Program-made: the position numbers and the translations under genes
Notes under the pieces: generated by a model
Databases searched by the model: none
What the model was told of the DNA's origin: nothing
Seen by the model: only the letters and a program-made list of their open reading frames with translations
In this document: piece after piece, positions 1 through 20,072 of the stretch
Layout of the letters: each line of letters starts with the position of its first letter
Position numbering within the stretch: position 1 is the first letter of the stretch
IMG/VR virus record: IMGVR_UViG_3300049810_002348
Coordinates: 1-27,247 of that record
DNA length: 27,247 nucleotides
Strand: one strand, 5' to 3'
Source of the DNA: a virus

Positions 1-498
1 TTCCAAACTCCATTTTTCAGCCATAATTTGTTTTGTAATTCTTCTACTGTTTTCTACATCTACCATCCACATAGTGTTAGTACCACGTGCTTCTGTAAAC
101 GGTGTCCATATAGTTCTACACCCTCTGCCATTACCTACAAAGATACCTTGATGGAAAGCAAGTCTTCGTCCTACACTTGCTTGATTAGGAATAACCACAC
201 GTAAAGTTCCTTGACGCTGAATCATATATCTTTTATTGTCGATACGCTGCGGAATATATTCAGCAACAAAAGCATCAAAGCGTTCCATAAAGTCTTTACG
301 ACTACATGCATTTTGTACATGCCTACTAACAGTTACAATTTCTTTAGGAGATAGTACTTCGTGTAATGTTTCTAGTTTAGTAACTTGTGGTGTTACTTCT
401 TGTACAACACCTAACGCCCATGCAGGCCAGTTGAATTTTTCTAGATCGTATTCTAGTGTACAATTATTCCATTCCTTCTGCAATGAAGTTAGTTCCAT
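1..498 (-). CDS. StrG-like / phytanoyl-dioxygenase-like 2OG-Fe(II) oxygenase, 3' end cut off
   Basis: The first 166 residues are visible and the frame stays open to the left edge, so the C-terminus is missing. A segment at about residues 85-145 (RIDNKRYMIQRQGTL, then RRLAFHQGIFVGNGRG, then TIWTPFTEARGTNTMW) resembles, from memory, the sporadic-carbohydrate-cluster/StrG-type branch of the Fe(II)/2-oxoglutarate oxygenases, which occurs in sugar-modification loci and marine phages. The usual HxD iron motif appears as H116-Q117-G118, so the carboxylate ligand is replaced by glycine; the distal His and the 2OG-binding Arg would lie beyond the window. It is the last visible gene of the leftward unit, its ATG starting 2 nt after the stop of the preceding oxygenase gene. 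Family assignment is moderate; activity and substrate are unknown. Confidence 0.6.
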   Translation of the reverse strand, partial: MELTSLQKEWNNCTLEYDLEKFNWPAWALGVVQEVTPQVTKLETLHEVLSPKEIVTVSRHVQNACSRKDFMERFDAFVAEYIPQRIDNKRYMIQRQGTLRVVIPNQASVGRRLAFHQGIFVGNGRGCRTIWTPFTEARGTNTMWMVDVENSRRITKQIMAEKWSLE

Positions 499-500
499 AG

Positions 501-1001
501 TTACTTCCTTTCGAATGTGTTAATTTGGCAAGTTATAAAATTATCTTGTGTAGCATTTGCGGCACAATGTGAATCATCAATCCCAAAACTCCATACATCT
601 CCCTTTTTCCATCTAGTAAGAATTTTTTCTTCAAACTCTACCATTTGGCCCATTTCCCAATCTTGCAAGAACATTAGGTAACGAATGCATTCGTCTCTTT
701 CAACACCGTACTTTTTTCTTAACTTATAAAATTTATCAGTGTGTACAGGAACAACATTACCTGGAGCAATATTTGTCCACGAAACTGTTCCGTTGGTAAT
801 ATTCAACTCTTCCATAAACCTTGGCCAATACTCTGGGAGGTCATTGTCAAATGCTTGTTCTAACGAGTTTAGCTCATTGATGTAATTAGGGTGAGACCAA
901 TGATCTCGTTGAGCTTGTGTTAATGGTGATAGAACAGCAAACTTAAAATCTTTAAGATCTTGGGACCAGAAATCCGATATGTTCTTCTCGAACTTGATCA
1001 T
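501..1001 (-). CDS. Small 2OG-Fe(II) oxygenase-like protein
   Basis: A 166-residue protein with the core of a single-domain Fe(II)/2-oxoglutarate oxygenase: GNVVPVHTDKF carries H87 and D89, followed by a strand-rich stretch (KKGDVWSFGIDDSHCAAN) with a distal H145. The Arg or Lys that normally binds 2OG about ten residues after the distal His is not obvious, so co-substrate binding is uncertain. It shares the layout HTD, W-KxGDV, then H-xAAN with the oxygenase encoded at 11113-11613, which has the same length. Its ATG overlaps the TGA of the amidinotransferase gene by 4 nt (ATGA), implying translational coupling. Substrate unknown; a hydroxylase acting on a small molecule or side chain would fit the family. 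Confidence 0.65.
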   Translation of the reverse strand: MIKFEKNISDFWSQDLKDFKFAVLSPLTQAQRDHWSHPNYINELNSLEQAFDNDLPEYWPRFMEELNITNGTVSWTNIAPGNVVPVHTDKFYKLRKKYGVERDECIRYLMFLQDWEMGQMVEFEEKILTRWKKGDVWSFGIDDSHCAANATQDNFITCQINTFERK

Positions 1002-2050
1002 GTATAATCTTCTAACTCCCCTTTTCTACGCAAGTCTAGTGTAGCGCAGTGCAATCCTCCACTAAGTGTCATAGCATGTCTAAAGCGTATAGGTACACTT
1101 GTAATACCGTGCTTGTCTAATTCTCTCATCAAAGGTTCTTGTGTGTCATCTACACATACAGTATTGTGATCAACACTTAAAATATTCATTCCTATGTACG
1201 GGCTACAAGGAGCAACACCTCCAGGTATTTTACTTCCTTGTGCAATACAATCATCAAACCAAATTTTATCCCACTTCTCAAATACTTTAGGACAGTTTTC
1301 TGCGGTTACTCTTGAACTGTTTAGTAATACTAATCCAGGACGTAAAGGTACTATTGTACTGTCGAAGTGACCGTAACTGTAAATATGTTCTGCAGGGTGT
1401 ATACGATAACCTCTATGCTCTAATACATTTTGTAGCCATTTTAATCCCCAGTGGTTACCTGTGTTACTAATTTGGAATAATATGTCTTTACCTAAACGCA
1501 CACAGTTAGGTGCATCGAAGATCGGTTCTAAGTTTAGTAAACTAGGCTTACCATCTATATCTTCAAACTGATAACCTTCATCTGGTAGTATAGGCTTAGG
1601 AGCAGAAATCCATTCAACACCATCTTCAATTGCTTCAAACATCACATTTCTATATGCTCTAGTTTCATACTGCCTTGCACGACATGCACTTGGAGTCTCA
1701 ATAACTAAGTTGTCCATAGGTAGCAATAAGTCTCTCGGGCACCATGTGTACCAACCTGTTGTTTTCCATTCAGGTGTACTGAACTCTACGCTATGATCAA
1801 TTGGAATAGGTCTATGTACTTTTACACCTGCTTTAGTTAGTACATCACTTAACCCTTGTAAATCTTCGTTGGCTTCATCAATAAGCCATTCTGGGTACTC
1901 ACCTTCTAAAGGCTTAATTAAATCCATTGGGTGATTAGTGTAGCTCATGCTCATTGTGCTACGATCTACAGTAGGAACTCTTGCATGGTCAGCGATTCCA
2001 ACTACTATTTCTTCTAAGGGATCCCAGTGATTATGTGTCGATACTTTCAT
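998..2050 (-). CDS. Amidinotransferase of the StrB1 / glycine amidinotransferase (AGAT) family
   Basis: A full-length 350-residue amidinotransferase, which moves the amidino group of arginine to an amine acceptor (glycine in AGAT, scyllo-inosamine-4-phosphate in StrB1) through a covalent Cys intermediate. The catalytic triad is visible: D179 (EPIFDAPNCVRLGKD), H228 (YGHFDSTIVPLRPGL) and C335 (GGLHCATLDLRRKGELEDY). The N-terminal THNHWDPLEEIVVG and the CPRDLLL segment (about 104-110) are also family landmarks. The overall wording looks closer to bacterial StrB1-type enzymes than to animal AGAT, but that is a memory comparison. The ATG has AGAAGG upstream and lies about 28 nt downstream of a late-type promoter element, so this gene may head a sub-operon with the two oxygenases that follow. 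The natural acceptor is unknown. Confidence 0.9.
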   Translation of the reverse strand: MKVSTHNHWDPLEEIVVGIADHARVPTVDRSTMSMSYTNHPMDLIKPLEGEYPEWLIDEANEDLQGLSDVLTKAGVKVHRPIPIDHSVEFSTPEWKTTGWYTWCPRDLLLPMDNLVIETPSACRARQYETRAYRNVMFEAIEDGVEWISAPKPILPDEGYQFEDIDGKPSLLNLEPIFDAPNCVRLGKDILFQISNTGNHWGLKWLQNVLEHRGYRIHPAEHIYSYGHFDSTIVPLRPGLVLLNSSRVTAENCPKVFEKWDKIWFDDCIAQGSKIPGGVAPCSPYIGMNILSVDHNTVCVDDTQEPLMRELDKHGITSVPIRFRHAMTLSGGLHCATLDLRRKGELEDYT

Positions 2051-2077
2051 TTTTTGCCTTCTTCTATTATGTGTGTA

Positions 2078-2085
2078 TATTTATC
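2078..2085 (-). promoter_or_regulatory. Late-type promoter element GATAAATA upstream of the amidinotransferase gene
   Basis: On the minus strand GATAAATA sits in the 41-nt gap between the radical SAM stop and the amidinotransferase ATG. A start about 6 nt downstream would give a leader of about 20 nt carrying AGAAGGC before the ATG. Unlike the elements at divergent junctions, this one would make a conventional leadered mRNA. The match to the T4/cyanophage late consensus is by eye. Confidence 0.6.
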
Positions 2086-2091
2086 GGGTGG

Positions 2092-3009
2092 TTATACATT
2101 TGATTGCGATAAATGGTTAACAACATATTCCTTGTTTGGTATCTCTGTTTGCTTGACTAAGTCTATTATTTCTTGCTTGTTTGTATAGTTAGTAATGTTA
2201 AGACGCTTTGGATATGTTAAAACATTAACTGTCCATATGGGAGTAATGCTGTTAACAAACTTTTCTAAATCAGCAATACCATGCCAATTGTTCAAGTGTA
2301 ATACACTGTTAACTTCAAGTCCATATCCTAACTTTTTAATTTGTTCTATAAATTTTAGTATGTCAGGCCATTTACTTCCACTACGAACTATTTCATTTAA
2401 TGGTCCGACAGCATCAATACTTAATATAAAGTGTACCTTTTTAAATTTTTCTAACAGTTCTATAACATCGTCTTTTAAAAGGAAAGTTCCGTTAGTGTTA
2501 TATATTACTTCAACTTGTTTAGGATTATTAATCTTTTCAAGGAACTGTTGATGCCTTTTTGTCATTAAAGGTTCACCACCAAGAAACAATACTTTCTTTA
2601 CAGTGTCCGGAACTGTTTCTATTTCATCAACACTTGTATACTTTGCAACTCCTGTTTCTTTCTTAGCCCATGCTGAACTAAACTCGCTCCAACAGCCATC
2701 ACATGTTAGATTACATATATTATCAAAGCCTATCTCTAAGTATTCTAAGCCAACAGTATCAGTATCATATTCTTTGTTCATGCGTTGGCGTAAACTTTCT
2801 TTGCCGTTCTTTTCTTCATACATACACTTCGAACATTCCCATAAAGTTGACACATCAGTGTTCCTTAACTTTACATACTCTTCTGATTGTAGTACATCTT
2901 CAAGGCTACCTTTAAATGTTGTTACAGGTGATTTGTATCTACAACACGGAAATACTCTGTTATCACCACGTATATTAGTATGTTTCCAAAATGCTGCACA
3001 CTTAGTCAT
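2092..3009 (-). CDS. Radical SAM protein with N-terminal twitch-type cysteine domain
   Basis: A 305-residue radical SAM enzyme. The 4Fe-4S/SAM motif is CNLTCDGC (C99, C103, C106), followed by the SAM-binding LGGEP (143-147) and a later NTNG strand. Before the barrel is a small cysteine-rich region (C4, C22, C23, C59, C62), the pattern of the N-twitch radical SAM group, where an auxiliary Fe-S cluster domain precedes the barrel. Two larger homologues of this layout lie at 20794-22062 and 24739-26121. The C-terminal part is short. The ATG has AGGAG 8 nt upstream and overlaps the preceding gene by 8 nt. Such proteins modify peptides or small molecules, but no reaction is known that I can assign here. 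Confidence 0.85.
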   Translation of the reverse strand: MTKCAAFWKHTNIRGDNRVFPCCRYKSPVTTFKGSLEDVLQSEEYVKLRNTDVSTLWECSKCMYEEKNGKESLRQRMNKEYDTDTVGLEYLEIGFDNICNLTCDGCWSEFSSAWAKKETGVAKYTSVDEIETVPDTVKKVLFLGGEPLMTKRHQQFLEKINNPKQVEVIYNTNGTFLLKDDVIELLEKFKKVHFILSIDAVGPLNEIVRSGSKWPDILKFIEQIKKLGYGLEVNSVLHLNNWHGIADLEKFVNSITPIWTVNVLTYPKRLNITNYTNKQEIIDLVKQTEIPNKEYVVNHLSQSNV

Positions 3010-4171
3010 TAGGTAATCTCCTAATAAGTTGTGTGTATCCTAAGCCTTCGAAGTAGTAATCTAATTCTTCTTTAGGAATATTAAACTCGTCTTTAAACTT
3101 GGCAAGTAAGTTATCCTGCGTTATAACATGCTTAAGAAACTGCAAGTAATTTTCTTCAGTGTCTAAACGTATGTCATCGTCATGTTCTCTATGCTCTAAT
3201 AGATACTTTGCATTTTCTACAATTGCATTGTTTCTATCGTTTTCATTCGGTAGTTTATAATAGTCTGGTATAGGCAAGTATTCTTCAAACGTTCTGTAGC
3301 CTAAGTCTTTTAAGTATTGGAACTGATCAGGATGTCCTGCAAATATAAATGGATGTCTAAGGTAAAAGCAACGCCAAGACTTTTCTGTTGCAAATGCATT
3401 GTCATCGTCCCAATAGTTTGGACCTTCACTTACTATACTAAACAGTGTATTGGTAAACACACTAGTATCAATGTGTGCAGGTGCTTTGACCCAATCAGTA
3501 TCAATAACATCGTGCCAAACTATATCAGTGTCTTGATTATAAGAACCATAGAAGTCCTTGGCTGTTTCAAACCTTCCATCAAAAGAACGTTTGCAGTCTA
3601 TTAAAAATTTATTATATTGTTTGTCTGTGTAATGAGATAAACAGTTTCTACACCATTCTTTATCTAGTTCAGTCCAAGGAGGAAAGAATGTCCACTCTGC
3701 TTTATTCAACATACCTGCATCATAAAACTTGCTCATAAGTCCTATTCTATTTTCTCTATTAGGCATTCCTGTTAAAAATAAAAACTTATTGTTGTTTGGA
3801 TTATAGTAAGGGTGCTGTGTATTTTTGTAACTATTGTATATCATTCTTACATTATAATCAAAAAAGAAAAATGGAACTGGCAATCCTTCTATAGTTTCTC
3901 CTTGCCCACTTACAATATACATCTGCTCTATACCTTTGCTTGTTGCATGATCTTTGATATCAGATATATGTTGAAGGAAATCTGTAAGTCCAGCCTTAGG
4001 GTGTAAGAATCCATCAAGTAGGTATATGCCCACTATTATATTACAGCCGTCTGCTGCTGCTTGATCAATTTCTTTATTAATTAACTTTGTTCTAAGTACA
4101 TTGAAATCTTCTGCTGACCAATGATTATAATCACGCATCCATTCAAAGTTAATTACTCTACCCTTATTCAT
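3002..4171 (-). CDS. Glycosyltransferase-like phage protein (paralogue 1 of a tandem pair)
   Basis: A 389-residue protein clearly homologous to the next gene upstream: both begin M-x-KG-x-[VI]-x-NFE, share RENRIGLMSKFYDAGML-like text (about 139-155) and carry a C-terminal block with SEGPNYW, TEK at 262-264, RHPFIFAG and LGYRTFEEYLP (about 248-300). The block resembles the nucleotide-sugar-binding end of family GT10 fucosyltransferases (a TEK motif followed by a hydrophobic PFI-x-G strand), and I recall similar proteins of unknown function in marine myoviruses. No signal peptide or membrane segment is seen. Its ATG overlaps the upstream paralogue's stop by 8 nt and has AAGGGA upstream. Sugar transfer is an inference from weak similarity. 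Confidence 0.55.
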   Translation of the reverse strand: MNKGRVINFEWMRDYNHWSAEDFNVLRTKLINKEIDQAAADGCNIIVGIYLLDGFLHPKAGLTDFLQHISDIKDHATSKGIEQMYIVSGQGETIEGLPVPFFFFDYNVRMIYNSYKNTQHPYYNPNNNKFLFLTGMPNRENRIGLMSKFYDAGMLNKAEWTFFPPWTELDKEWCRNCLSHYTDKQYNKFLIDCKRSFDGRFETAKDFYGSYNQDTDIVWHDVIDTDWVKAPAHIDTSVFTNTLFSIVSEGPNYWDDDNAFATEKSWRCFYLRHPFIFAGHPDQFQYLKDLGYRTFEEYLPIPDYYKLPNENDRNNAIVENAKYLLEHREHDDDIRLDTEENYLQFLKHVITQDNLLAKFKDEFNIPKEELDYYFEGLGYTQLIRRLPND

Positions 4172-5303
4172 TCTTTTCCCTTATGAGATGATCTAATCCT
4201 TCGTTGTCCAAGTAGTAATTTATTTCACTTCTCGGAACTGCCATAATATTTTCTAAATTATCAAACAGTCTATCTTGTGTTTCTATTATGTTCATGTACT
4301 GCTTATAATTGTATTCAACATCAGCAGCAATATTTTTATTATGGCTGTCTAGTAGATACTTTGTATTTTCTACAATAGCATCTAGCCTTTTATCTTCATC
4401 TTGAATATAAGCATAATCTTTAATTGGAAGATAGTCTTCAAATGTTTTAAAGCCTAAGGACTTTATATATTTAAACTGTTCTGTGGGACCAGCAAATATA
4501 AAAGGATGCCTGTTTATAATTGTACGCCATGTTTTTTCTGTAACAAAGTCATAGTCGTCTGACCAAAAGTTAGGGCCTTCTGATAGTATACTGAAGTGTG
4601 TATCTTCAAATACCTTAGGTGTTAAATATCCAGGTCTTTTGTAAAACTTTGTGTTTACAATATCGTGCCAATCTCCATAAGTTTCTTGAGCATCTTTAAT
4701 TAACAATTTAACTTCATCGTATCTATCGTCTATGCTTCTTTCAACGGTATCAATAAACTTGCTGTATTCTTTGTCGCTATATCTTTTTAAATGATCTCTA
4801 CACCATTTAACATCTTCAGCATATGTTGGTTTAAAGAAACTCCATTCTGCTTTATCTAACATTCCTGCGTCATAAAACTTACTAAGCAGTCCTATTCTGT
4901 TTGACCTAGTTGCTGCACCACCAAGAAACAAAAACTTGTCCTTATTATCATACAACGGAAGTTGTGACTTTTTGTAGCAGTTGTAAACAAATCTTGCATG
5001 GTAAGGAAAATAGTGTATCTCAAACGGAACAGTAATATTTTTAAATTGTTCTCCTAGTGAAGATAGTATTACTAATTGAATGCCAAGTTCAGTTGTTTGT
5101 TTTTGTAAGTTATTAAAAAATTGCTGTAAGTTGCTGTCATCAAATGGTAGTATTCCTTCGTTTAGAACTATTCCTACAACGTGGGTACAACCTTCATCTG
5201 CGGCCTTTTGTATATCCATAGGAATATACTTCTCCGCCAAGGACACTAGTCCTTCGTCAGTATCCCACAGGATTTCGAAATTAAGTATTTTGCCTTTTTT
5301 CAT
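4164..5303 (-). CDS. Glycosyltransferase-like phage protein (paralogue 2 of a tandem pair)
   Basis: A 379-residue paralogue of the protein encoded at 3002-4171. Matching landmarks are the start (MKKGKILNFE against MNKGRVINFE), RSNRIGLLSKFYDAGMLDKAEW (about 133-154, shared almost word for word) and the C-terminal block SEGPNFW, VTEKTW (TEK at 255-257), NRHPFIFAG and LGFKTFEDYLP. The shared N-terminal words support this ATG although it lies 23 nt inside the end of the PLP-enzyme gene and no strong Shine-Dalgarno is present. The C-terminal half is better conserved between the two than the middle, suggesting duplication followed by a change in acceptor specificity. GT10-like glycosyltransferase remains the best guess. 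Confidence 0.55.
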   Translation of the reverse strand: MKKGKILNFEILWDTDEGLVSLAEKYIPMDIQKAADEGCTHVVGIVLNEGILPFDDSNLQQFFNNLQKQTTELGIQLVILSSLGEQFKNITVPFEIHYFPYHARFVYNCYKKSQLPLYDNKDKFLFLGGAATRSNRIGLLSKFYDAGMLDKAEWSFFKPTYAEDVKWCRDHLKRYSDKEYSKFIDTVERSIDDRYDEVKLLIKDAQETYGDWHDIVNTKFYKRPGYLTPKVFEDTHFSILSEGPNFWSDDYDFVTEKTWRTIINRHPFIFAGPTEQFKYIKSLGFKTFEDYLPIKDYAYIQDEDKRLDAIVENTKYLLDSHNKNIAADVEYNYKQYMNIIETQDRLFDNLENIMAVPRSEINYYLDNEGLDHLIREKNE

Positions 5304-6216
5304 CTGCTATTGCTTTTATTTCATCTTCAAGGTTATTATTAGACAAGTACTTGTGTAGACTTAGTCTATTTGTTTCTCTATCTCTATTGTACTCATTCCA
5401 TCGGCTGTCCCCTATGCCAAAAAGAATACAATCGCTAGGTTCTACATCTAGTATTTCACAACAGCGTTCTTGCTTTGCTCTATAATTATCATATATGTAG
5501 TCAGGCGAAAAACTGTTGAGTAATTGTAGTCCTATATATGCTGATACCCTATTGATATATCCTGCTTTGTTTGTAACAAACAACGGATCGTCATCATCTT
5601 CTTTAGTTAATCTCATTCCTATTCTAGCATGAGCGCAGTATAGTGTTTTAGATAGACTAAATGTTACGTCAGTAATACATTCTCTATCAAGATTAAAGTC
5701 TATGCCGCTGCACACACCGAGGTAAGCACAATCAAGTAACACAGGTATTTTAAGTTTGTCACACTGATCAAGTAGCAAATCTAAATCCTTAGGTGTGTTG
5801 CCAGTATCGCTAAAAGGTAGACTTATCATAACAACGTCATTTCCAGCAAGAGGAGCATCATCCAACCACTCCCAATCATATCCGTTGTTCCTACAATTTA
5901 GTCTATGATATACATATTCTCCTTTGTAAAATCTAAATCTACGTTTATGATGTTTTGCATAAAACTTTTCAAACGCTTCTGTCGTTCCATTTGCAAAACA
6001 AGCATATGGATATTTTTCTAAACCTGTAACATTATTATTTTTTGTTTCTGATATCCACTCAATATATCTGTCTAAAAACTTTTTCAGTACATCTTGGTCT
6101 TGTGTAACTTTAGTAACGTCAATGTTAAGATTAGACAAGAACGTGGTAACCAGCGGATCTGCTATAGCAAATGCATTTCCAAAAGGCAAATGTTTCTTAT
6201 CGTATTTGTTCTTCAT
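5281..6216 (-). CDS. PLP-dependent fold-type I aminotransferase-like enzyme
   Basis: A 311-residue protein with the class I/II aminotransferase pattern: FANGTTEAF (about 74-82, phosphate-binding loop), SDTGNTP with N140, VLLDCAYLG with D162 (pyridine nitrogen) and Y165, then FSLSK with the probable Schiff-base K190 and ARIGMRL with R198/R202. At about 310 residues it is shorter than usual (about 380-420), lacking much of the C-terminal small domain, so it may be a reduced enzyme or a decarboxylase/lyase variant. The ATG has a strong GGAGGT 5 nt upstream and overlaps the radical SAM gene by 20 nt. Lying in one unit with an amidinotransferase, it could supply an amine for amidination, as in aminocyclitol pathways; that link is inference. 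Confidence 0.8.
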   Translation of the reverse strand: MKNKYDKKHLPFGNAFAIADPLVTTFLSNLNIDVTKVTQDQDVLKKFLDRYIEWISETKNNNVTGLEKYPYACFANGTTEAFEKFYAKHHKRRFRFYKGEYVYHRLNCRNNGYDWEWLDDAPLAGNDVVMISLPFSDTGNTPKDLDLLLDQCDKLKIPVLLDCAYLGVCSGIDFNLDRECITDVTFSLSKTLYCAHARIGMRLTKEDDDDPLFVTNKAGYINRVSAYIGLQLLNSFSPDYIYDNYRAKQERCCEILDVEPSDCILFGIGDSRWNEYNRDRETNRLSLHKYLSNNNLEDEIKAIADEKRQNT

Positions 6217-7051
6217 GTACTACCTCCAACGGTATCTGTTCGTAGTGTTTTCTACTTAATCTAGGATCGTTTTTCCTATGTAATATTTTAGGGTTCTTGG
6301 GACACATTGCACAAAAACTTTCTGCTTTCCTATTAAAAAATTCTTGTAGCTCTTCATCTGTACAATCTGGTGTAAGTGCTTGGTACTTTAAATAAGGATC
6401 CCACTTACTGGATAATTTGTATGTTTTTGCTGTCATAGGCAAGTATGCTAATGGAGCACACTTATACAAATTATTCTCATGTATTTGCCAGCAGTCTTGA
6501 CCTGTAATACAGTTATCCCAACTTTGTTGAGGATCGTTATCTTCATATGGCTCCATTGTAGATCCAAATCCTTTATACATTTTATACCAAATAACATCTG
6601 ACTTCCAAAAGTCAACATTGATTCCGTATTTGTCAATCCAATCTAGTGCAGTTGCTTCTATGCCTTTCCAAAGTTCATTATATTCAGCATTGGTACCGTG
6701 TTTAGATATTTTTAATCCGCAATTATTATCTGCAAGTACTTTTGGTAAATCAGGATATCTATTCAATAGCACACCATTTGTTGTAATATCTAATCTTTCT
6801 AAACTAGGCTTATCCCATTTCTTGCGTGTAAGTTCTACAATATCGCAAATGCGTTTATTAAGTAATGGCTCACCTCCCAGTATATCTATTGTTTTAGGTG
6901 CTATTCTATGCGCCCAACTATCGTACCACTTTTCAATTTGTTCATATGTTACAGGAACACTATGCCCATGATTAGAAAAATGACAGCAGTTTTCGCATGT
7001 AAAATTACAAGCGTGTGCTACATGCCATTCTAAGTGAGATATTGATACCAT
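6197..7051 (-). CDS. Radical SAM protein with C-terminal cysteine cluster
   Basis: A 284-residue radical SAM enzyme, first gene of the large leftward unit. CNFTCENCC carries C15, C19 and C22, with LGGEP at 58-62 and TTNG near 91-94. Five further cysteines (C182, C188, C199, C248, C251; the last two in CAMCPKN) form a probable auxiliary cluster region of SPASM/twitch type. The layout is close to the protein encoded at 7746-8750, and the CxxxCxxCC-x-F-x-H start resembles the partial gene at the right edge. The ATG at 7051 is chosen because the motif then begins at residue 15; the frame extends to a TTG at 7102 but that adds 17 implausible residues and overlaps the divergent gene. No clear Shine-Dalgarno is seen. 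Substrate unknown. Confidence 0.85.
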   Translation of the reverse strand: MVSISHLEWHVAHACNFTCENCCHFSNHGHSVPVTYEQIEKWYDSWAHRIAPKTIDILGGEPLLNKRICDIVELTRKKWDKPSLERLDITTNGVLLNRYPDLPKVLADNNCGLKISKHGTNAEYNELWKGIEATALDWIDKYGINVDFWKSDVIWYKMYKGFGSTMEPYEDNDPQQSWDNCITGQDCWQIHENNLYKCAPLAYLPMTAKTYKLSSKWDPYLKYQALTPDCTDEELQEFFNRKAESFCAMCPKNPKILHRKNDPRLSRKHYEQIPLEVVHEEQIR

Positions 7052-7090: not shown

Positions 7091-7756
7091 ATGATAGCAC
7101 AAAATGACTACGAAGTTGCAGATTGGTTACTGAATAGAAGCAATTTTGGCTGGCTTGAGTTAGATATAGAGTTCGATTTAGACGCATGGCAGAAGGAAAC
7201 TGCCGCTGCAAAATTTGTAGATCATAGAGGCGGAGAACATCCTGGATGGAACAGTAGTTGCATACATGGCATTGATGTAGATAAAACTGGTGCGTGGACA
7301 AACTACGGCTATGAAAGAGAAGAAGATGTTCCTTACAAATGGACTAGTATAAGTGAGCATACACCTAGCATCAAAGGCTTTTGGGAATTGTTTCCATATG
7401 AACGCTATAGAAGAATACGTTTTATGCAACTTGAACCTGGCGGCAAAATAAGTCCGCACAGCGATGCTCCTGGAAAGTTACCAGGTGAAGAAAATTTAGA
7501 CATGCTCGAGTTTGGAGTACCTATTAACGTAGCAATTATTCACCCAGACGACTGTCATATGACTCTTGAAGGACACGGTACTGTTCCTTTCAAAGAAGGA
7601 AAGGCTTTTATAATTAATATAAGAAACGTACATAGTTTTGTTAACAATTCTAACACACCTAGAATACACTTAATAGCACATGGTATACCAGGTAAACGTA
7701 AAGATGAATTTGTGGAACTTATAGCAAGAAGTTATAGGAAACAGAATGAACGATAG
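7091..7756 (+). CDS. Aspartyl/asparaginyl beta-hydroxylase-like 2OG-Fe(II) oxygenase
   Basis: A 221-residue oxygenase with the complete set of family residues: RIRFMQLEPGG leads into H123 and D125 (SPHSDAP), the distal H181 (NIRNVHSFVN) and R191 ten residues later (PRIHLIAHG) for 2-oxoglutarate. This resembles the aspartyl/asparaginyl beta-hydroxylase group, which hydroxylates side chains of Asp, Asn or related substrates. Several marine phage proteins of this kind have unknown targets. It opens a two-gene rightward unit with the radical SAM gene that overlaps its 3' end by 11 nt, so the two enzymes may act on one substrate. The ATG lies 5 nt after a late-type promoter element and has no Shine-Dalgarno. 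Confidence 0.85.
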   Translation: MIAQNDYEVADWLLNRSNFGWLELDIEFDLDAWQKETAAAKFVDHRGGEHPGWNSSCIHGIDVDKTGAWTNYGYEREEDVPYKWTSISEHTPSIKGFWELFPYERYRRIRFMQLEPGGKISPHSDAPGKLPGEENLDMLEFGVPINVAIIHPDDCHMTLEGHGTVPFKEGKAFIINIRNVHSFVNNSNTPRIHLIAHGIPGKRKDEFVELIARSYRKQNER

Positions 7757-8750
7757 TATTAAAATATTAGATATATTCTACGGCAACAAATGTCAACTTG
7801 CTTGTGATCACTGCGATACAAGGAGTGACTACATACGACACGGAGAATTTGATCCTACACTTGATAACATTTTAGAAAGTGTTACACTTGCTAGCCAACA
7901 GTTTAATGTAGAGTGTTGGAGTGTGTTAGGCGGAGAACCTTTCTTATACACAGATACAGTTATAGCAATTATTGAACATATTCGAAGTTTAGAAAAAGAA
8001 AAAGATAAAGTTATCTTCTTTCCTACTAATGGTATTGCATTAAACAAACCAAAGGTAATGGATCTTGCTGTAGAGTTAATTACAAAACATAATGTATGGA
8101 TGCAAATTTGTAGTCATGTAGCAGCATGGGACGTTTTAGCAAAGCATAATCAAATGTTAGAAAATGTATACGATCTTGCAGCTCGTGTAGGATATGATAA
8201 AGTTGAACCTACAAGCAGTTGGTGGTCTTCTATAATGAACTTGGGAGGTGGCAATGCTGCTTGGCAAGAGTTTAATAGACGAAAAGGTATGGACTTAACC
8301 ATGGAAGAGTCTCCTAACGAAGCAGCATGGATGAATGGGAAAAGTGGCATATATTATATGGAAGCTCATAGTTTTCAAAAAATACATAACAGAGATGACT
8401 TAGGAAAATTAAGGCCGTTTAATCAAGGAGATCCTGAATCATCATATTGGAATGGTTGTCCTAGTTGTTTTTGTGCAATGCTAATTAACAAGAAAGTTTA
8501 CAAATGCGGAGCATTAGGTACACTTAAAAATGTACTAACAAAAACAAAACAATTAGACGATGAAGATTGGCAGCCGTACTTAAATTACAAACCGGTGGAC
8601 TTAACACTTAACGATCAAGACGCTATAAACAATTTTTATAATACACACTACTCACATATAGATGCTTGTAATATGTGTCCTAAAAATGTTAATCAAGTAA
8701 AACAAAATGAACAAAACGTACTACCCAAGTACGCAAAAAATAGATTATAA
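7746..8750 (+). CDS. Radical SAM protein with C-terminal cysteine cluster
   Basis: A 334-residue radical SAM enzyme. CQLACDHC holds C16, C20 and C23, followed by LGGEP (61-65) and PTNG near 93-96. C238, C241, C243, C254, C308 and C311 (the last pair in CNMCPKN) form an auxiliary-cluster region like the one in the protein encoded at 6197-7051, which has the same overall order, so the two are divergent relatives on either side of one promoter region. The ATG lies inside the oxygenase gene with AGGA about 7 nt upstream. The 3' end overlaps the convergent gene by 6 nt, with both stop codons in the palindrome TTATAA. Substrate unknown. Confidence 0.85.
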   Translation: MNDSIKILDIFYGNKCQLACDHCDTRSDYIRHGEFDPTLDNILESVTLASQQFNVECWSVLGGEPFLYTDTVIAIIEHIRSLEKEKDKVIFFPTNGIALNKPKVMDLAVELITKHNVWMQICSHVAAWDVLAKHNQMLENVYDLAARVGYDKVEPTSSWWSSIMNLGGGNAAWQEFNRRKGMDLTMEESPNEAAWMNGKSGIYYMEAHSFQKIHNRDDLGKLRPFNQGDPESSYWNGCPSCFCAMLINKKVYKCGALGTLKNVLTKTKQLDDEDWQPYLNYKPVDLTLNDQDAINNFYNTHYSHIDACNMCPKNVNQVKQNEQNVLPKYAKNRL

Positions 8751-9420: not shown

Positions 9421-10515
9421 ATGGACTTAAATGACAAATTAGCATTCTGTATTGTAGATGATATAGATACATATAAAAACGATAGCATTAAACAAACTAT
9501 TAGAAATATTGTTGACTTTACAATATCCAATCTGCGTACCAAAGGGTATACAGTAAACATAGGTAAAAACGAAGATCAACTATTACAAAATCTAAAAGGT
9601 TATAAACATGCAGTAGTAATGAGTCCTGGCACAGAATTTATTAACGGCTTTGCGTTCTTTGAAGCACTAGATAAACTAGTAGAACAAGACTTTTTTGTAG
9701 CAGGACATATATTAGATCGTACTATGCACAATGCTTATTATGAACTGCATCATCAATGTTATGTAATTAATATGGATGCCTACAACGCATTTAAACGCCC
9801 TACAGTAGGCGCTTTAGAAAAAGACATAGTACATACCCAACTAGAACCTAAACGCAGCGTAGACAACATACACGACGACTATACGCCTATAACTGTAGCA
9901 AAAGGGTACAAGCAGGTTACGTATGCTAACAGATGTCATGGATGGAATCTATTAAAAGTAGCATTTGAATGGAACTTGCCTGTTATTGTATTTGACGATA
10001 GTATTCGTAATAACAAATGCCATTACTATCCTGAAAGCACAGAGGACTTTTTAAAACAGAAAGAACATATTGATCACAAATTAAAATACTGCGAGGAAGA
10101 ATTCGTACATACTGACAACACAGAATGGACAACTGGCATTACAGAAAAGTATGAACAAGTTGTGCTACCTGCTAGTGGAACACTATACTTAGACTTAATA
10201 GATAAAGGGCGTGTAGTGTTTTATGATTATAATAAAAAAGCACTAGACTACTGGAAAGAAACATGTCCACGTAAGGACGGCATAGATTATTTGTTTGTGT
10301 ATACTAATTTGCTTGAAGAACAGAACCTTATAAACTACTTAGATGTTAATCTAAAAACATTGGTTAACTTATCTAACGTATTCTGTTATGAAGGCACAGC
10401 AGCAAAGTACAGTTTAGAACAAAGGCTAACTGCACAAAACAAATTATTAAAGGTACTAGATACAGTATCTGATGTAAAGATTAACTTTACTATGAAAGCT
10501 GATGCTGGGCATTAA
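9421..10515 (+). CDS. Unknown large protein, possibly glycosyltransferase-like
   Basis: A 364-residue protein that I do not recognise with certainty. The N-terminal half has alternating strands and helices with FCIVDDIDTYK (about 9-19), AVVMSPGTEF (64-73) and a later HHQCYVINMDAYNAF-type segment (about 110-124) that recalls acceptor-binding text in GT-A-like glycosyltransferases. The C-terminal half has GTLYLDLIDKGRVVFYDYN (about 253-271) followed by ALDYWKE, which resembles a nucleotide- or SAM-binding beta-alpha unit. There is no signal peptide or membrane helix. It is a single-gene unit driven by an exact TATAAATA element 6 nt before the ATG. Its 3' end overlaps the convergent hydrolase-like gene by 26 nt. 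A two-domain enzyme is likely; any function is a guess. Confidence 0.5.
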   Translation: MDLNDKLAFCIVDDIDTYKNDSIKQTIRNIVDFTISNLRTKGYTVNIGKNEDQLLQNLKGYKHAVVMSPGTEFINGFAFFEALDKLVEQDFFVAGHILDRTMHNAYYELHHQCYVINMDAYNAFKRPTVGALEKDIVHTQLEPKRSVDNIHDDYTPITVAKGYKQVTYANRCHGWNLLKVAFEWNLPVIVFDDSIRNNKCHYYPESTEDFLKQKEHIDHKLKYCEEEFVHTDNTEWTTGITEKYEQVVLPASGTLYLDLIDKGRVVFYDYNKKALDYWKETCPRKDGIDYLFVYTNLLEEQNLINYLDVNLKTLVNLSNVFCYEGTAAKYSLEQRLTAQNKLLKVLDTVSDVKINFTMKADAGH

Positions 10516-11122
10516 TTAACTCAAACACATCTTGATTATTTTTGTTACCACCTATATGGTTGGCTGCCCATGTGTCAAACCCTTTTATGTCTTGATCAAC
10601 AAAATTATACAAAGGAGTTTCTATTTCAACTCCGTGTTTCCAATCATATGTTTTTTCAAAACTCCACATATGGATTATTTTACTTTTTACCTTGCTTAAT
10701 ACATTTAGGTCAAAGTATTGCAGTGCTGCTTTTTGCTCAACACTTGCTTTTTCGTAGTCGTGTAAATGTTTAAAATATTCTGCTGCTGCATTAATTTTTT
10801 TACGAAAGAATAAATCCTTGAAAGAATAATCCTTCCATTGTTTGTTTTCAATACTGCCTTTTGTAATGTTTCTAAGTTTAGCATCGTACAACCTGTTATA
10901 GTCTGTCCAGCAAAAGATAGAAATATCAGGTACATCACTTTCATTAAATTGTTTTAACATGACATCCCACACTGAGCTTCCGCCATATCCTAAATTTGTA
11001 ATTTTTGCATCGTGATGATTTCTTAGTTTTTCAATATAAGTATCGTAACCTTTTGCAATGCTATGTGGGTTAGATGTTTCGCAACAGAAACTATCTCCGT
11101 AAAATCCTATTGTTAGTGGCAT
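10490..11122 (-). CDS. SGNH/GDSL-like hydrolase
   Basis: A 210-residue protein with blocks of the SGNH hydrolase fold: IGFYGDSFC near the N-terminus (D10, nucleophile S11), NLGYGGSSVWD (G48, oxyanion block), FCWTDYNR (N76) and a C-terminal WAANHIGG with the probable catalytic H189 and D183 six residues before it. SGNH enzymes remove or transfer acyl groups, commonly acetyl, from sugars and other esters. The His block is not a standard DxxH, so activity is less certain than the fold. It is the third gene of a leftward unit after two 2OG oxygenases, with a 10-nt overlap with the upstream gene and a 26-nt convergent overlap at its 3' end. A role in modifying a glycan or small metabolite would fit. 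Confidence 0.65.
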   Translation of the reverse strand: MPLTIGFYGDSFCCETSNPHSIAKGYDTYIEKLRNHHDAKITNLGYGGSSVWDVMLKQFNESDVPDISIFCWTDYNRLYDAKLRNITKGSIENKQWKDYSFKDLFFRKKINAAAEYFKHLHDYEKASVEQKAALQYFDLNVLSKVKSKIIHMWSFEKTYDWKHGVEIETPLYNFVDQDIKGFDTWAANHIGGNKNNQDVFELINAQHQLS

Positions 11123-12459: not shown

Positions 12460-13152
12460 ATGAGTAACAACTTTGAATATTATTATAACACAGTTCCTGG
12501 TAAAGGTCAATGCCGAAATAATCTAATATACACCAGTTTGATTAGTAAGGATAAAAAGACATTTTGCCAATGGTACTACAATGATGAACAATATCATGGC
12601 GGGCATAATCAAGTAGTGGATCCTAACCTAATGGAGGAAAAATGGTTACGTGAAATTAACTTTATACAGCAAATGGAAATGAAGTACCCACAGCATGTGC
12701 CAGAAATACAAGATATTGACTTTATCAATAAAAAATTATACTTAAAAATTGATGGGCCTGACATGTGGGAACTAGCAGGCTGTGAAGGTAACGACTACAG
12801 TGTAGTTGATAATTGGGAAGAACAAATGCTTGAGATTATTCAAGCACACAAGGACTTGGGGTTGTACAAATACAGTATGCACCCTAGCAGTTATTTTGTA
12901 GTTGAGGGGAAACTAAAAAGTATTAATTACTTCTTTACATATAGTGATCAGGATCTTGGTATTAGTTTACGCAGTGTAATGAGTCACATCAGTGAAGATA
13001 GACAAGCAGACTTATTTCCTAAAATGGAAGCTGCTGGAATCGACGTAAACAAAGATACTCCTCATTCACAAATACAGTTACTAGCATTTGATAGTTTTAA
13101 AACAAACTTCCCTGATGAAGTTATGGAAAAGGCAAAAGCAATCTATGCATAA
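12460..13152 (+). CDS. Kinase-fold-like protein, paralogue of the protein at 17411-18094
   Basis: A 230-residue protein related to the one at 17411-18094. Shared landmarks are SKDKKTFCQWY against SEDGKTFCKNY, then P-x-[VI]-x-DIDF-x-NKKLYLKIDG (about 82-98) against PEVKDIDYKNQKIYIKWYG, and GLYKYSMHPSSYFVV (about 133-147) against GIYKLTMYPHCHYIT. The order (Lys-containing strand, Glu helix, hinge-like glycine, then an H-P/C-x-Y loop) resembles a reduced protein-kinase or phosphotransferase fold, but the catalytic Asp is absent and the DFG position reads SINYF, so it may be a pseudokinase or another fold. The ATG lies 5 nt after a late-type element. It overlaps the next gene by 8 nt. The kinase link is tentative. 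Confidence 0.45.
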   Translation: MSNNFEYYYNTVPGKGQCRNNLIYTSLISKDKKTFCQWYYNDEQYHGGHNQVVDPNLMEEKWLREINFIQQMEMKYPQHVPEIQDIDFINKKLYLKIDGPDMWELAGCEGNDYSVVDNWEEQMLEIIQAHKDLGLYKYSMHPSSYFVVEGKLKSINYFFTYSDQDLGISLRSVMSHISEDRQADLFPKMEAAGIDVNKDTPHSQIQLLAFDSFKTNFPDEVMEKAKAIYA

Positions 13153-14281: not shown

Positions 14282-14723
14282 TTATATCGTATCCTGCAAA
14301 TGTAAAGCCTGGGTTATCTAACCAAAACTTAATAGTATTACTAATTAGGTCATAGTTGGCATAACTGCTGCTGGTTAATCTCAAATAGAGCATAGGATGT
14401 TTGCTGTGCAACGACTGCTCTACTACATAATTTTCAAGTTCTAACTTTTGTTCACTGTATGTTGGCATACTAAAATCTTTAAACGTTGAAGCAATACTGC
14501 CACATACAACTAGTCTACATCTATCCTTTAATGCTTCTACATATTTGATCTGAGCACCTTTTGCGTGTGCGTTTAAAATAACAACACTGTCAGAATCAAT
14601 GTGAGAGCATATAGCATCTATGTCTTGTGAAAGGTCATAAGGTCTATCAAAATTTACGCAATTAAATTCTTTGCGTAAATGTAATCCTAATCCTTTGTTG
14701 CTTCCTACTATATAAAATTTCAT
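14274..14723 (-). CDS. Very short SDR-like protein
   Basis: A 149-residue protein that keeps the SDR landmarks in a compressed form: IVGSNKGLG (G7, G11, G13), LNAHAKG (N51), VCGSIAS (S76) and YSEQK (Y89, K93). At 149 residues it is about 100 shorter than a classical SDR, lacking much of the helices after the first strand and the C-terminal cap. All catalytic positions remain, so it may be an active minimal reductase or a partner of the 200-residue SDR downstream. The ATG overlaps the stop of the cold-shock/hydroxylase gene by 4 nt (ATGA). Both SDRs share ALKDKV/ALKDRC followed by a hydrophobic strand and GS-x-[SA]-S, which supports common descent. Confidence 0.75.
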   Translation of the reverse strand: MKFYIVGSNKGLGLHLRKEFNCVNFDRPYDLSQDIDAICSHIDSDSVVILNAHAKGAQIKYVEALKDRCRLVVCGSIASTFKDFSMPTYSEQKLELENYVVEQSLHSKHPMLYLRLTSSSYANYDLISNTIKFWLDNPGFTFAGYDINE

Positions 14724-15751
14724 TTTACTAGGTCATCTAGATTATCGAAAAAGTCGTCACCTAAATGATTTTCAATTACCTGTCGTAGTTTACTGTTTTC
14801 TAAATTTTTAAGTTTGCGATATAGCACTACGTTACCTCGCTGAATATCCATAAACTTTTTAACGTAAAATGTATCATCAAATGTTGGATTTTCTTCTGGC
14901 ACAAAGTCCTCCCTGTCTGTAAAACCTACTCTGTTTGTTTCACTAAAGAAACAACTGGCTATCCATTTTGTTCCTTTACTAATTACTGTACTTTCGTGTA
15001 TTGTACTCCAATTCTTGGCTTCATCGTAAGATTGCTTAAAGTATAACATGCTTCCTTTCTTAGGTTTTACATCAACGTTTAACTTTGGAAAGAATGTTGT
15101 GCCACCTTCGTAGTCATCATTAAGATACAGTATAGCAGTTCCTACTCTATCATTGCTTCCGTGAGAGTAGTAATTAATTTTATCAGGGAAATAAGGATAA
15201 TCGTGGTGTAAGTCTAAGTATCTACCTTTATCATAATTGTATATGTCAATAGCTTCAATATGAGAGTGTTGTAGTCCGCAGTTATCTACAATTGAATTTG
15301 CAATAGTATTATAGTGATGTGGATCCATACCAAGACTAATACCTCTTTGTTCCACATCTTCTGTTACCTGTGTATAACTTTCTTGTCTGCTCTGCTTTCC
15401 GCTGTCTGGATTCATTCCATCTGCAATGTGTTTAGCAATAATTTCGTCACACATGTCTTCTGAGACAGCATTGTCAAAAACTATGATAAGAGGTTCTTCA
15501 CAATATATTCTACCTTTAGCCATATTTAATACTGGCAACGGAACGGCATCATCTTCTAAAACAGTTATCTGCCCAGCGTGTTCTTTACCGTTGTACATAA
15601 ATCTTTCAAAAGAAATCTTTTGTCTTTCTTTCATAGTCTTTGGTTCACTAATCATGTGCCATTTCTCACATATAATCTGATCGCCCTTATCAGTCTTGAC
15701 AAAGCCAAAACCTTTTGCGTCATTGAACCACTGTACTATTCCTGTTTCCAT
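14720..15751 (-). CDS. Cold-shock domain fused to a prolyl-4-hydroxylase-type 2OG-Fe(II) oxygenase
   Basis: A 343-residue two-domain protein. Residues 1-66 form a cold-shock domain: METGIVQWFNDAKGFGFV has the RNP1-like KGFGFV used to bind single-stranded nucleic acid, ending with HAGQITVL. Residues 75-275 form a prolyl-4-hydroxylase-type oxygenase: YDKGRYLDLHHDY carries H182 and D184, then GTAILYLNDDYEGGTTFFP, the distal H252 (STIHEST) and K262 (GTKWIASCFF) for 2-oxoglutarate, as in P4H enzymes. About 70 C-terminal residues are charged and unassigned. The start at 15751 overlaps the upstream stop by 1 nt (TAATG) and matches the usual start of cold-shock proteins; an ATG at 15766 would add five residues. 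The fusion suggests a hydroxylase directed to RNA, ssDNA or a ribonucleoprotein. Confidence 0.9.
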   Translation of the reverse strand: METGIVQWFNDAKGFGFVKTDKGDQIICEKWHMISEPKTMKERQKISFERFMYNGKEHAGQITVLEDDAVPLPVLNMAKGRIYCEEPLIIVFDNAVSEDMCDEIIAKHIADGMNPDSGKQSRQESYTQVTEDVEQRGISLGMDPHHYNTIANSIVDNCGLQHSHIEAIDIYNYDKGRYLDLHHDYPYFPDKINYYSHGSNDRVGTAILYLNDDYEGGTTFFPKLNVDVKPKKGSMLYFKQSYDEAKNWSTIHESTVISKGTKWIASCFFSETNRVGFTDREDFVPEENPTFDDTFYVKKFMDIQRGNVVLYRKLKNLENSKLRQVIENHLGDDFFDNLDDLVK

Positions 15752-16284
15752 TACCATGCGTTCCATATGTACTTAGGCACTGTTCCGCAATTAGTTCCGG
15801 CGTGCCAAATCTTTCTATCTACCCACTCGTATGTTGCACCTTGTGGAATATTATAAAATGTTTCATTGCCTGCAATAAAAATATGCCCCCATTGCGGACT
15901 ACCTATATGGCAATGATATCTAGGACAATCAGGAATACTTTCTTCATTGTCATGTACGTCCCAATGAATAGGTGCAAAACGTCCTGGGTGTATTCTACTT
16001 ATCCACACATTTTTACAGTCTAATCCGTAAAACTCGTTCCAAGCATCAACTATGCTTTGGTCAAACTGTTTGCCTGGAATAAACATATCCCAACCTGCTG
16101 TGCCACCTTCGTGTACAGTTTTATATCCTGCTTGTTCCCACATATCTAATATAGGATCTAATCCAGGAACAGTATCACCACGTTTATGGCTAGGTCCTAC
16201 ATATTCAGGATCAACACTTGCACATTGATCAATTACACTATCCCAATCAATAGTGTTACATATTCCTAAATGTTTAATCTGCAT
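15751..16284 (-). CDS. HWD-type 2OG-Fe(II) oxygenase-like protein
   Basis: A 177-residue protein with the probable iron ligands H107 and D109 (RFAPIHWDVHD) and distal H161 (KIWHAGTN), and K171 ten residues later. The text SRIHPGRFAPIHWDV, QWGHIFIAGN and YEWVDRKIWHAGT is repeated in modified form in the paralogue at 16846-17418, and the two flank the alternative oxidase gene. The second ATG (16284) is chosen because TAGG lies 7 nt upstream; the first (16290) is too close. It overlaps the oxidase gene by 11 nt. The family resembles small aspartyl-hydroxylase-like proteins of marine phages, with unknown substrate. Confidence 0.65.
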   Translation of the reverse strand: MQIKHLGICNTIDWDSVIDQCASVDPEYVGPSHKRGDTVPGLDPILDMWEQAGYKTVHEGGTAGWDMFIPGKQFDQSIVDAWNEFYGLDCKNVWISRIHPGRFAPIHWDVHDNEESIPDCPRYHCHIGSPQWGHIFIAGNETFYNIPQGATYEWVDRKIWHAGTNCGTVPKYIWNAW

Positions 16285-17418: not shown

Positions 17419-18094
17419 TGAATAACTCCTCGTATATGTAACTCATATTCTGATCTCCCCATAAAACATGTGTGCTTAAACTACGCTTAAACATAATTTC
17501 TAAGTTTATTTTGTCTTCAACAAGCTCACCTGTTTCATCTAACCTAAATTGTGCTGTATCGTGTATAATACCTTGCATGTACTTTTCTTCAATATAAGGA
17601 TCATCAATAGGAACACAGCCGTACCAGTCTATACATTTCATTTGTTTGTAATCTGTAATATAATGACAATGTGGATACATTGTTAATTTGTATATACCTT
17701 CGTCAAATTGATCAACAATTATATCTCTAATTTGTCTACGCCACATATACTCTGGCCACTCTTCAACTTCAGTATCATAAATTACTTGGTTACAACTTTT
17801 ACCATACCACTTGATGTAAATTTTTTGATTTTTGTAATCTATATCTTTTACCTCTGGTGCATACTTTTTATCTTTGAATAATTCAAGATAAGTTAATTCG
17901 TTTTGAAAAAACCAATCAACAACTTCTTTTGTATACAATGGTCGATGCTGTATATCTCTATATGCGTATTCGTTTGGAAATCCGTAGTTCTTACAAAATG
18001 TTTTTCCATCTTCACTTACAAGAGGTTCATAAGTTTGTTGTGCCATACAAGGACGGCCAATGCTATCAAGTTTTAAGTAATGGTTCCATTTCAT
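17411..18094 (-). CDS. Kinase-fold-like protein, paralogue of the protein at 12460-13152
   Basis: A 227-residue protein related to that at 12460-13152. SEDGKTFCKNY (about 27-37) has the Lys of a possible ATP-binding strand, followed by a Glu-containing helix (FFQNELTYLELF), PEVKDIDYKNQKIYIKWYG, then GIYKLTMYPHCHYIT and MKCIDWYGCV. The last two segments sit where the catalytic loop and the DFG motif fall in kinases, here HCHYI and DWYG, so this copy looks less degenerate than its paralogue. ATP-dependent phosphotransfer is possible but unproven. The ATG at 18094 overlaps the epimerase stop (ATGA) with AAGG 7 nt upstream, which rules out the longer frame to 18109. Confidence 0.5.
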   Translation of the reverse strand: MKWNHYLKLDSIGRPCMAQQTYEPLVSEDGKTFCKNYGFPNEYAYRDIQHRPLYTKEVVDWFFQNELTYLELFKDKKYAPEVKDIDYKNQKIYIKWYGKSCNQVIYDTEVEEWPEYMWRRQIRDIIVDQFDEGIYKLTMYPHCHYITDYKQMKCIDWYGCVPIDDPYIEEKYMQGIIHDTAQFRLDETGELVEDKINLEIMFKRSLSTHVLWGDQNMSYIYEELFNA

Positions 18095-19002
18095 ACAATA
18101 GCCTTCCATATCTCGATAGTTTTATCAAGTCCTTCGTCTAATGTAACTTTTGGTTCCCACCCTAGTTTTTTCTTAATTAGTGTATTGTTAGAGTTAAGCC
18201 AGTAAATCTCTCCTGCACGAAATAGTTTTGTATCCCAGTTGATAGTTCCTTTCCAGTCTAACTTTTTAGCAATTAGTTCTGCATAGTCTCTAATCTTAAT
18301 AGGATTATCCGGACCAATTGTAAAAATACTTCCGTCATTACATTTATCAGGATTGTTAATTACTGTTTCCCAGGCATCTAGCATATCGTCAACAAAAATA
18401 AAATTACGATACGGCTCAGCATAACCTAAGTTACACTTGTCTGGATTAGTTAACATTTGATTAATAATTTGTTCAGTTACAAAAAACTCATTATCCTTTC
18501 TGCCATAGCAGTTTGTTTGCCTTAGAGCTGTAAAAGGAAAGTCATAACAACGATGTGCATATTCTAAATATTTTTCACAACCATACTTTGCAACTGCATA
18601 CGGAGCATTAGGATTAGGAACAGTGTTTTCGTCAAATGCTATAGATTGCTTTGGTGTACCGTGTTCTTCAATTTCATCTGAAATAGGTTGCCACCCGTAC
18701 ACTTCCATTGTACTTGCAAACACAAAGTTTCTTAAATTTTTTACCTTGGCTGCTGTTTCAATTAAGTTAACTGTGCCAACATAATTAATTTCACTAAATG
18801 TAATCTGCTCGTAAAAACTTTGTTCGACTTCTGTACGTGCAGCAAGATGAACAATAATATCAGGTTTTACTAATAATACTTCGCCAGCAACTGATTGATG
18901 ATCTAGCAAATCGCTTTTCAAATGATGCACTTCGTGATTCTTTAGTCTTTCGGATAGATGAGAACCTATGAATCCAGATGATCCTGTCATTAAAATTTTC
19001 AC
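18091..19002 (-). CDS. NAD-dependent epimerase/dehydratase (extended SDR)
   Basis: A 303-residue extended SDR of the nucleotide-sugar epimerase/dehydratase group. The Rossmann loop is TGSSGFIGSHL (G7, G10, G13), then VHLAA (51-55), the catalytic ST pair in FASTMEVYG (S97, T98) and Y135/K139 in PYAVAKYGCEKY. RNFIFVDDMLDAW is the usual substrate-binding strand, and the C-terminal LGWEPKVTLDEGL is typical. Members isomerise or dehydrate UDP-, GDP- or dTDP-sugars; which sugar cannot be told. It opens the eight-gene leftward unit. The GTG at 19002 is chosen because GGAG lies 8 nt upstream; a TTG at 19008 in the same frame is too close to that site. Confidence 0.9.
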   Translation of the reverse strand: MKILMTGSSGFIGSHLSERLKNHEVHHLKSDLLDHQSVAGEVLLVKPDIIVHLAARTEVEQSFYEQITFSEINYVGTVNLIETAAKVKNLRNFVFASTMEVYGWQPISDEIEEHGTPKQSIAFDENTVPNPNAPYAVAKYGCEKYLEYAHRCYDFPFTALRQTNCYGRKDNEFFVTEQIINQMLTNPDKCNLGYAEPYRNFIFVDDMLDAWETVINNPDKCNDGSIFTIGPDNPIKIRDYAELIAKKLDWKGTINWDTKLFRAGEIYWLNSNNTLIKKKLGWEPKVTLDEGLDKTIEIWKAIV

Positions 19003-19018
19003 TGCCAATACTCCATAT

Positions 19019-20031: not shown

Positions 20032-20059
20032 GGAACTACGATATGTGCGTATAAAACTT

Positions 20060-20067
20060 GGTAAATA
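20060..20067 (+). promoter_or_regulatory. Late-type promoter element GGTAAATA (rightward)
   Basis: GGTAAATA is followed by TCGTT and the ATG at 20073. This position selects the ATG at 20073 over an in-frame TTG at 20058 that lies upstream of the element. Confidence 0.65.
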
Positions 20068-20072
20068 TCGTT

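Follow-up and report, generated by a model that had tools for sequence, protein, structure and literature searches.

A minus-strand phage gene unit around a StrB1-type amidinotransferase, read as a possible guanidino-sugar cassette

What would a phage make with an amidinotransferase? The question is raised by IMG/VR virus record IMGVR_UViG_3300049810_002348, whose analyzed stretch of 27,247 nt is called the window here. A compact minus-strand unit at 1-7051 encodes, in order of transcription, a radical S-adenosylmethionine (SAM) enzyme, a pyridoxal phosphate (PLP) enzyme, two glycosyltransferase (GT)-like proteins, another radical SAM enzyme, the amidinotransferase, a small 2-oxoglutarate (2OG) oxygenase-like protein, and a gene cut by the contig edge. 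The unit was tentatively read as a phage cassette that builds a guanidino-sugar and transfers it to a glycan. This reading is favored, at slightly less than an even chance.

Enzymes of the gene unit

The amidinotransferase was ranked by phmmer nearest to StrB1 (1bwd, 321 bits, E 8e-95), followed by HsvA (205), SxtG (201), and AGAT (about 195). All superfamily residues were aligned, i.e., the catalytic set given in Table 1 and the arginine-binding R247, and one row of the phage clade has Glu at the Asp179 position. The CPRD motif and, in most members, PLRPG are common to the phage and StrB1-type enzymes, whereas AGAT and HsvA carry MPRD and IIGPG or PLAPG. By score and motifs, the enzyme is predicted to be of StrB1 type rather than AGAT type. 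No match was found in Pfam and NCBIfam, and databases carry the family as 'unknown function' (phrog_25854) or glycine amidinotransferase.

The acceptor-lid residues preceding the catalytic His are mostly YSYA, YSFA, YSYS, or YSYG in phages, YAST in StrB1, and PNPM in AGAT. In AGAT, the residues at this place, i.e., the 300-flap, have been tied to substrate choice (PMC4887976). Because the lid signature differs from those of AGAT and StrB1, the acceptor of the phage enzyme is probably neither glycine nor inosamine phosphate. In the phylogenetic tree, the phage amidinotransferases formed their own clade (99.9). Nesting with the StrB1 clade of antibiotic clusters was rejected by the approximately unbiased (AU) test (p 0.00125), whereas a grouping with AGAT/HsvA was not (p 0.57).

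The PLP enzyme matched Pfam Aminotran_1_2 (E 2.5e-6), and its AlphaFold model (pLDDT 92) was aligned to HisC by Foldseek (E 1e-12). Alignment A3 contains the PLP lysine of the SLSK motif (K190), the pyridine aspartate (D162), and the phosphate and carboxylate arginines (R202 and R284). With these residues and the modelled fold, the protein is predicted to be a fold-type I class I/II aminotransferase. The DegT family, to which StsC belongs, was considered and ruled out, the class I/II assignment being given by Pfam and structure.

Neither GT-like protein had a Pfam, PHROG, or NCBIfam match. The model of the 4164-5303 protein (AlphaFold pLDDT 88) hit GT-B glycosyltransferases in all 50 matches listed, the best with Z 11.3 over 257 aligned residues, and a two-domain GT-B fold is therefore predicted. 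The twitch/SPASM radical SAM enzyme at 2092-3009 scored 186.8 bits against NF033640 (cut-off 170).

In alignment A4, the HxD...H motif of the small oxygenase family is invariant. The family had no match in Pfam, PHROGs, or NCBIfam and no significant one in PDB, so its class rests on the motif; no similarity to StrG was detected. PDB sequence profiles likewise gave no significant relative for the PLP, GT, small oxygenase, and edge-protein families.

The edge gene is complete (9553-10680) in L006, a locus in the 77 kb record of a near-identical phage, whose amidinotransferase is 100% identical. The complete homologue matched Streptomyces griseus StrG (E 4e-9), and along its full length TIGR04324 and then TIGR04323; the SpoChoClust_2 match had E 9e-22, under the 150-bit cut-off. 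It consists of a StrG/SpoChoClust_2-like part fused to a SpoChoClust_1 domain. These two families are separate reading frames of one locus in bacterial contigs and are fused in phages. The iron-binding HxD is changed to HQG in 12/12 aligned phage members with the second His retained, whereas the position reads HSD in bacterial members and HRD in StrG. The edge protein may be a halogenase-like enzyme or an inactive oxygenase. Literature searching returned nothing useful on the sporadic carbohydrate cluster, StrG oxygenase, or guanidino phage glycans.

The preliminary description had placed an amidinotransferase, an aminotransferase, GT-like proteins, and a StrG-like oxygenase in one unit. This is borne out, as all are encoded on the minus strand with overlaps or very short gaps; the StrG-like protein is the edge gene (1-498) and not the 501-1001 gene. 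The radical SAM gene at 2092-3009 had been overlooked, and a second radical SAM gene, with its end near 7051, extends the unit. The gaps between successive genes are 2, -4, 41, -8, -8, -23, and -20 nt. Because the genes overlap by 4-23 nt or lie at most 41 nt apart, a single transcript is likely. Promoter and terminator scans gave matches no better than chance.

Table 1. Features of the gene unit and of related genes elsewhere in the window
Feature	Position	Strand	Basis
StrG/SpoChoClust_2-like protein, N-terminal part, truncated at contig edge	1..498	-	StrG and TIGR matches of the L006 homologue
Small 2OG-Fe(II) oxygenase-like protein, HxD...H triad H87/D89/H145	501..1001	-	Motif; invariant columns of alignment A4
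Amidinotransferase, predicted StrB1-type, 350 aa	998..2050	-	phmmer; catalytic residues D107, D179, H228, D230, C335
Radical SAM enzyme, N-terminal SPASM/twitch domain	2092..3009	-	Pfam; NF033640 above cut-off
GT-B-type glycosyltransferase-like protein, paralogue of 4164..5303	3002..4171	-	44% identity to 4164..5303
GT-B-type glycosyltransferase-like protein	4164..5303	-	AlphaFold model; structural matches
PLP-dependent fold-type I class I/II aminotransferase-like protein, reduced, 311 aa	5281..6216	-	Pfam; alignment A3; AlphaFold; PDB matches
Radical SAM enzyme, ATG start at 7051 (TTG at 7102 possible)	6197..7051	-	Pfam; neighbors retained in relatives
Asp/Arg beta-hydroxylase-like 2OG oxygenase, divergent from unit	7091..7756	+	Pfam PF05118
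Radical SAM enzyme overlapping the Asp/Arg beta-hydroxylase-like gene	7746..8750	+	Pfam; 18/41 loci
Short-chain dehydrogenase/reductase (SDR) of 4,6-dehydratase type (STMEVYG ... YAVAK)	18091..19008	-	Below-cut-off NCBIfam matches; family inside cassette in other phages

Cassette membership in viruses and bacteria

Relatives of the amidinotransferase were found in 41 viral loci by the first scan and in at least 588 by profile scan. In 71 distinct viral loci flanked by four genes on either side, the PLP enzyme occurred within four genes of the amidinotransferase in 85% and the GT family in 69%. The small-oxygenase family occurred in 97% (69/71), part of which may reflect the abundance of 2OG enzymes in these phages because the 501-1001 profile is broad. 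Firmer evidence is the directly adjoining gene, which is the small oxygenase in most of the 71 loci. The reverse search from the PLP enzyme found an amidinotransferase within 5 kb in 66/80 loci. From this reciprocity and the stable neighbors, it follows that the neighbors do not vary freely between relatives, a possibility that the preliminary description had raised.

The membership of the cassette is conserved while its gene order is shuffled. With AMD for amidinotransferase and OX for small oxygenase, the orders seen were PLP-AMD-OX, PLP-GT-(radical SAM or other)-AMD-OX, OX-PLP-AMD-radical SAM-GT, and PLP-AMD-StrG-like-OX-GT. In one lineage, the cassette sits among tail sheath, sheath stabilizer, and head-tail connector genes. 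These surroundings are compatible with a virion target but do not prove it.

Ordinary bacterial StrB1-type loci had no PLP or oxygenase partners, with the exception of one contig of a Bdellovibrionota metagenome-assembled genome (MAG). Besides uvrC, this contig carries overlapping oxygenase and amidinotransferase genes, a PLP gene in convergent orientation, and a GT-like gene, and so provides a chromosomal example of the set. Matches to the PLP family occurred in 18/291 genomes of the same phylum. In loci L290-L299 from this phylum, the gene lies beside twitch/SPASM radical SAM genes, and once also near a divergent amidinotransferase. Three bacterial matches (L050, L051, and L054) have the appearance of phage contigs that ended up in MAGs by binning, and they were left out as cellular examples. 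L054 contains T4-like genes and, by eye, tryptophan-halogenase-like, carbamoyltransferase-like, and several SGNH-hydrolase-like genes.

Candidate products of the cassette

In the guanidino-sugar reading, a nucleotide-sugar taken from the host would gain a keto group through an SDR, through the radical SAM and 2OG enzymes, or through both. The PLP enzyme would exchange this keto group for an amine, and the amidinotransferase would move an amidino group from L-arginine to this amine through a covalent intermediate at Cys335. The 2OG oxygenases may tailor the sugar, and the GT-B enzymes would join it to a glycan whose most likely location is the virion or the surface of the infected cell. This reading is supported by the SDR, the sporadic-carbohydrate edge protein, the GT-B fold, the intact catalytic residues, the conserved core, and the Bdellovibrionota copy.

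The SDR scored best against NCBIfam LegB (117 bits) and dTDP-glucose 4,6-dehydratase (113 bits), both under cut-off. In its family, STMEVYG is invariant (40/40) and PYAVAK is present in all but one member. Members at 70-99% identity were found in 12/17 long virus records. The tail-sheath-side lineage has the gene immediately downstream of the core, L044 has it ahead of the PLP gene, and in L014 it is flanked by the radical SAM and amidinotransferase genes.

Several points weigh against the guanidino-sugar reading. The SDR is missing from some operons and lies 16 kb from the unit in the window. The PLP enzyme belongs with the amino-acid enzymes of class I/II and not with the DegT family usual in sugar transamination, and the GT-B assignment fixes neither donor nor acceptor. 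Peptide or amino-acid chemistry would also suit the radical SAM and 2OG enzymes. The conservation percentages are not independent counts because many loci are near relatives. A nucleotidyltransferase domain was found in 0/17 long virus records, so the sugar nucleotides would have to be host-derived; these records may be incomplete, and absence from them is weak evidence.

A streptomycin-type route had been proposed in the preliminary description. Its sequence of transamination, amidination, and sugar transfer is the most economical reading, with the StrB1-type score and motifs, the stable neighbors, and the SDR in its favor. The aminocyclitol pathway proper is not upheld. The PLP enzyme is not of the DegT family, the StrB1 clade placement is rejected (p 0.001), and among the 17 long records myo-inositol-phosphate synthase (PF07994) was found in none, DegT in two, and the GFO/IDH (StrI) domain PF01408 in one, as a weak match.

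Of the four rival readings, a free metabolite is the likeliest, followed by modification of peptides, then of DNA, and last by guanidinoacetate. A diffusible guanidino metabolite, derived from an amino acid or amino alcohol and acting on the host or competitors with no glycan involved, is unlikely but has to be weighed. The structures nearest to the PLP enzyme are HisC, CobD, ACC synthase, and the arginine oxidases MppP/RohP, and in NCBIfam CobD was matched as well, though weakly (E 8e-5). However, such a metabolite leaves aside the GTs near the amidinotransferase in over two-thirds of the loci, the SDR, and the sporadic-carbohydrate proteins.

Modification of a peptide or protein is improbable. 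Here, radical SAM/SPASM and 2OG enzymes would act on residues and the amidinotransferase would guanidinylate a side-chain amine. It agrees with the number of radical SAM genes (eight) and 2OG oxygenases (several) within 27 kb and with the best PDB match of the radical SAM family, the peptide maturase SkfB. However, many loci have the core trio with no internal radical SAM gene, and no precursor peptide gene was noticed beside the core, although no systematic search was made.

Hypermodification of DNA, with a modified base glycosylated by the GT-B enzymes and DNA as the final carrier of the guanidino group, is still less probable. The top structural matches of the GT model include the T4 beta- and alpha-glucosyltransferases, but the GT-B fold is generic and the set has a chromosomal copy in a bacterium. 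Thymidylate synthase PF00303, of the hydroxymethylase-type fold family, was found in 1/17 of the long, possibly incomplete records.

The conversion of glycine to guanidinoacetate for creatine-like metabolism, the alternative offered in the preliminary description, is very improbable: the AGAT/HsvA grouping (p 0.57) and a viral guanidinoacetate N-methyltransferase from the oceans (PMC11360552) would suit it, but the scores (321 vs. 195 bits), CPRD/PLRPG, and the lid (YSYA/G vs. PNPM) disfavor it, and the PLP, SDR, and GT partners would have no reason.

If the guanidino-sugar reading is true, the sugar would alter virion charge, receptor binding, or recognition, and would be new viral glycan chemistry. 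The presence of the amidinotransferase set in hundreds of viral contigs would suggest that phages commonly make a cationic sugar resembling arginine. A limited literature search found no paper on a phage guanidino-sugar. A bolder version is a long shot: a new route of 4,6-dehydratase-like SDR, class I/II aminotransferase, and amidinotransferase to a virion guanidino-sugar in aquatic phages, with the edge protein, its iron-binding Asp lost (HQG) and both histidines kept, as an Fe/2OG halogenase-like enzyme that has this sugar as its substrate.

Other genes were seen in the window. The Asp/Arg beta-hydroxylase-like gene beside the unit is on the opposite strand in 28/41 related loci. The full 1-27,247 stretch has eight matches to radical SAM enzymes and contains many 2OG-type oxygenases. 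One gene (14720-15766, minus strand) encodes a cold-shock domain fused to a 2OG-Fe(II) oxygenase domain. A respiratory-type alternative oxidase (Pfam AOX, E 1.5e-67; 16274-16849, minus strand) lies between two small 2OG-like genes. Two proteins at 12460-13152 (plus strand) and 17411-18109 (minus strand) are kinase-like by eye (phosphotransferase fold) with no Pfam or NCBIfam match, and could be kinases of aminosugars or other small molecules. A protein with a PP-loop-like SGGADSALLA motif (20058-20810, plus strand) likewise had no Pfam or NCBIfam match.

Comparison with known systems

Phage amidinotransferases with radical SAM, aminotransferase, or GT neighbors have been seen before. In Campylobacter phages CP220 and CPt10, radical SAM/amidinotransferase clusters were noted without a defined function (PMC2853527). 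In Synechococcus phage S-SCSM2R (PQ898602), an 'inosamine amidinotransferase' adjoins a 2OG gene and GTs. However, these amidinotransferases are only 23-35% identical to the present one, their other neighbors differ, and they are labelled 'glycine amidinotransferase' or 'inosamine amidinotransferase' with no pathway given. The cassette reading supplies a defined candidate substrate for the phage family.

The edge gene aligns with StrG and with both sporadic carbohydrate cluster families, TIGR04324 and TIGR04323, in order. It differs in that the phage proteins are fused, have HQG instead of HxD, and score under the curated cut-offs. Human AGAT and Erwinia HsvA share fold and catalytic residues with the phage amidinotransferase, but are set apart by their MPRD, IIGPG/PLAPG, and PNPM/PAPM signatures and lower scores.

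The closest system is StrB1 (PDB 1bwd), the L-arginine:inosamine-phosphate amidinotransferase of streptomycin biosynthesis. The homology is full-length (45% in alignment A1), with the catalytic set, CPRD, PLRPG, and R247 in common. However, the phage clade is separate and its lid reads YSYA/G instead of YAST. The partners also differ, i.e., class I/II PLP, radical SAM, 2OG, and GT-B enzymes in phages, whereas StrB1 is accompanied by inositol dehydrogenase and DegT enzymes. The logic of the cassette, to oxidize, aminate, and amidinate, is streptomycin-like, but the parts are different and it is not a streptomycin pathway.

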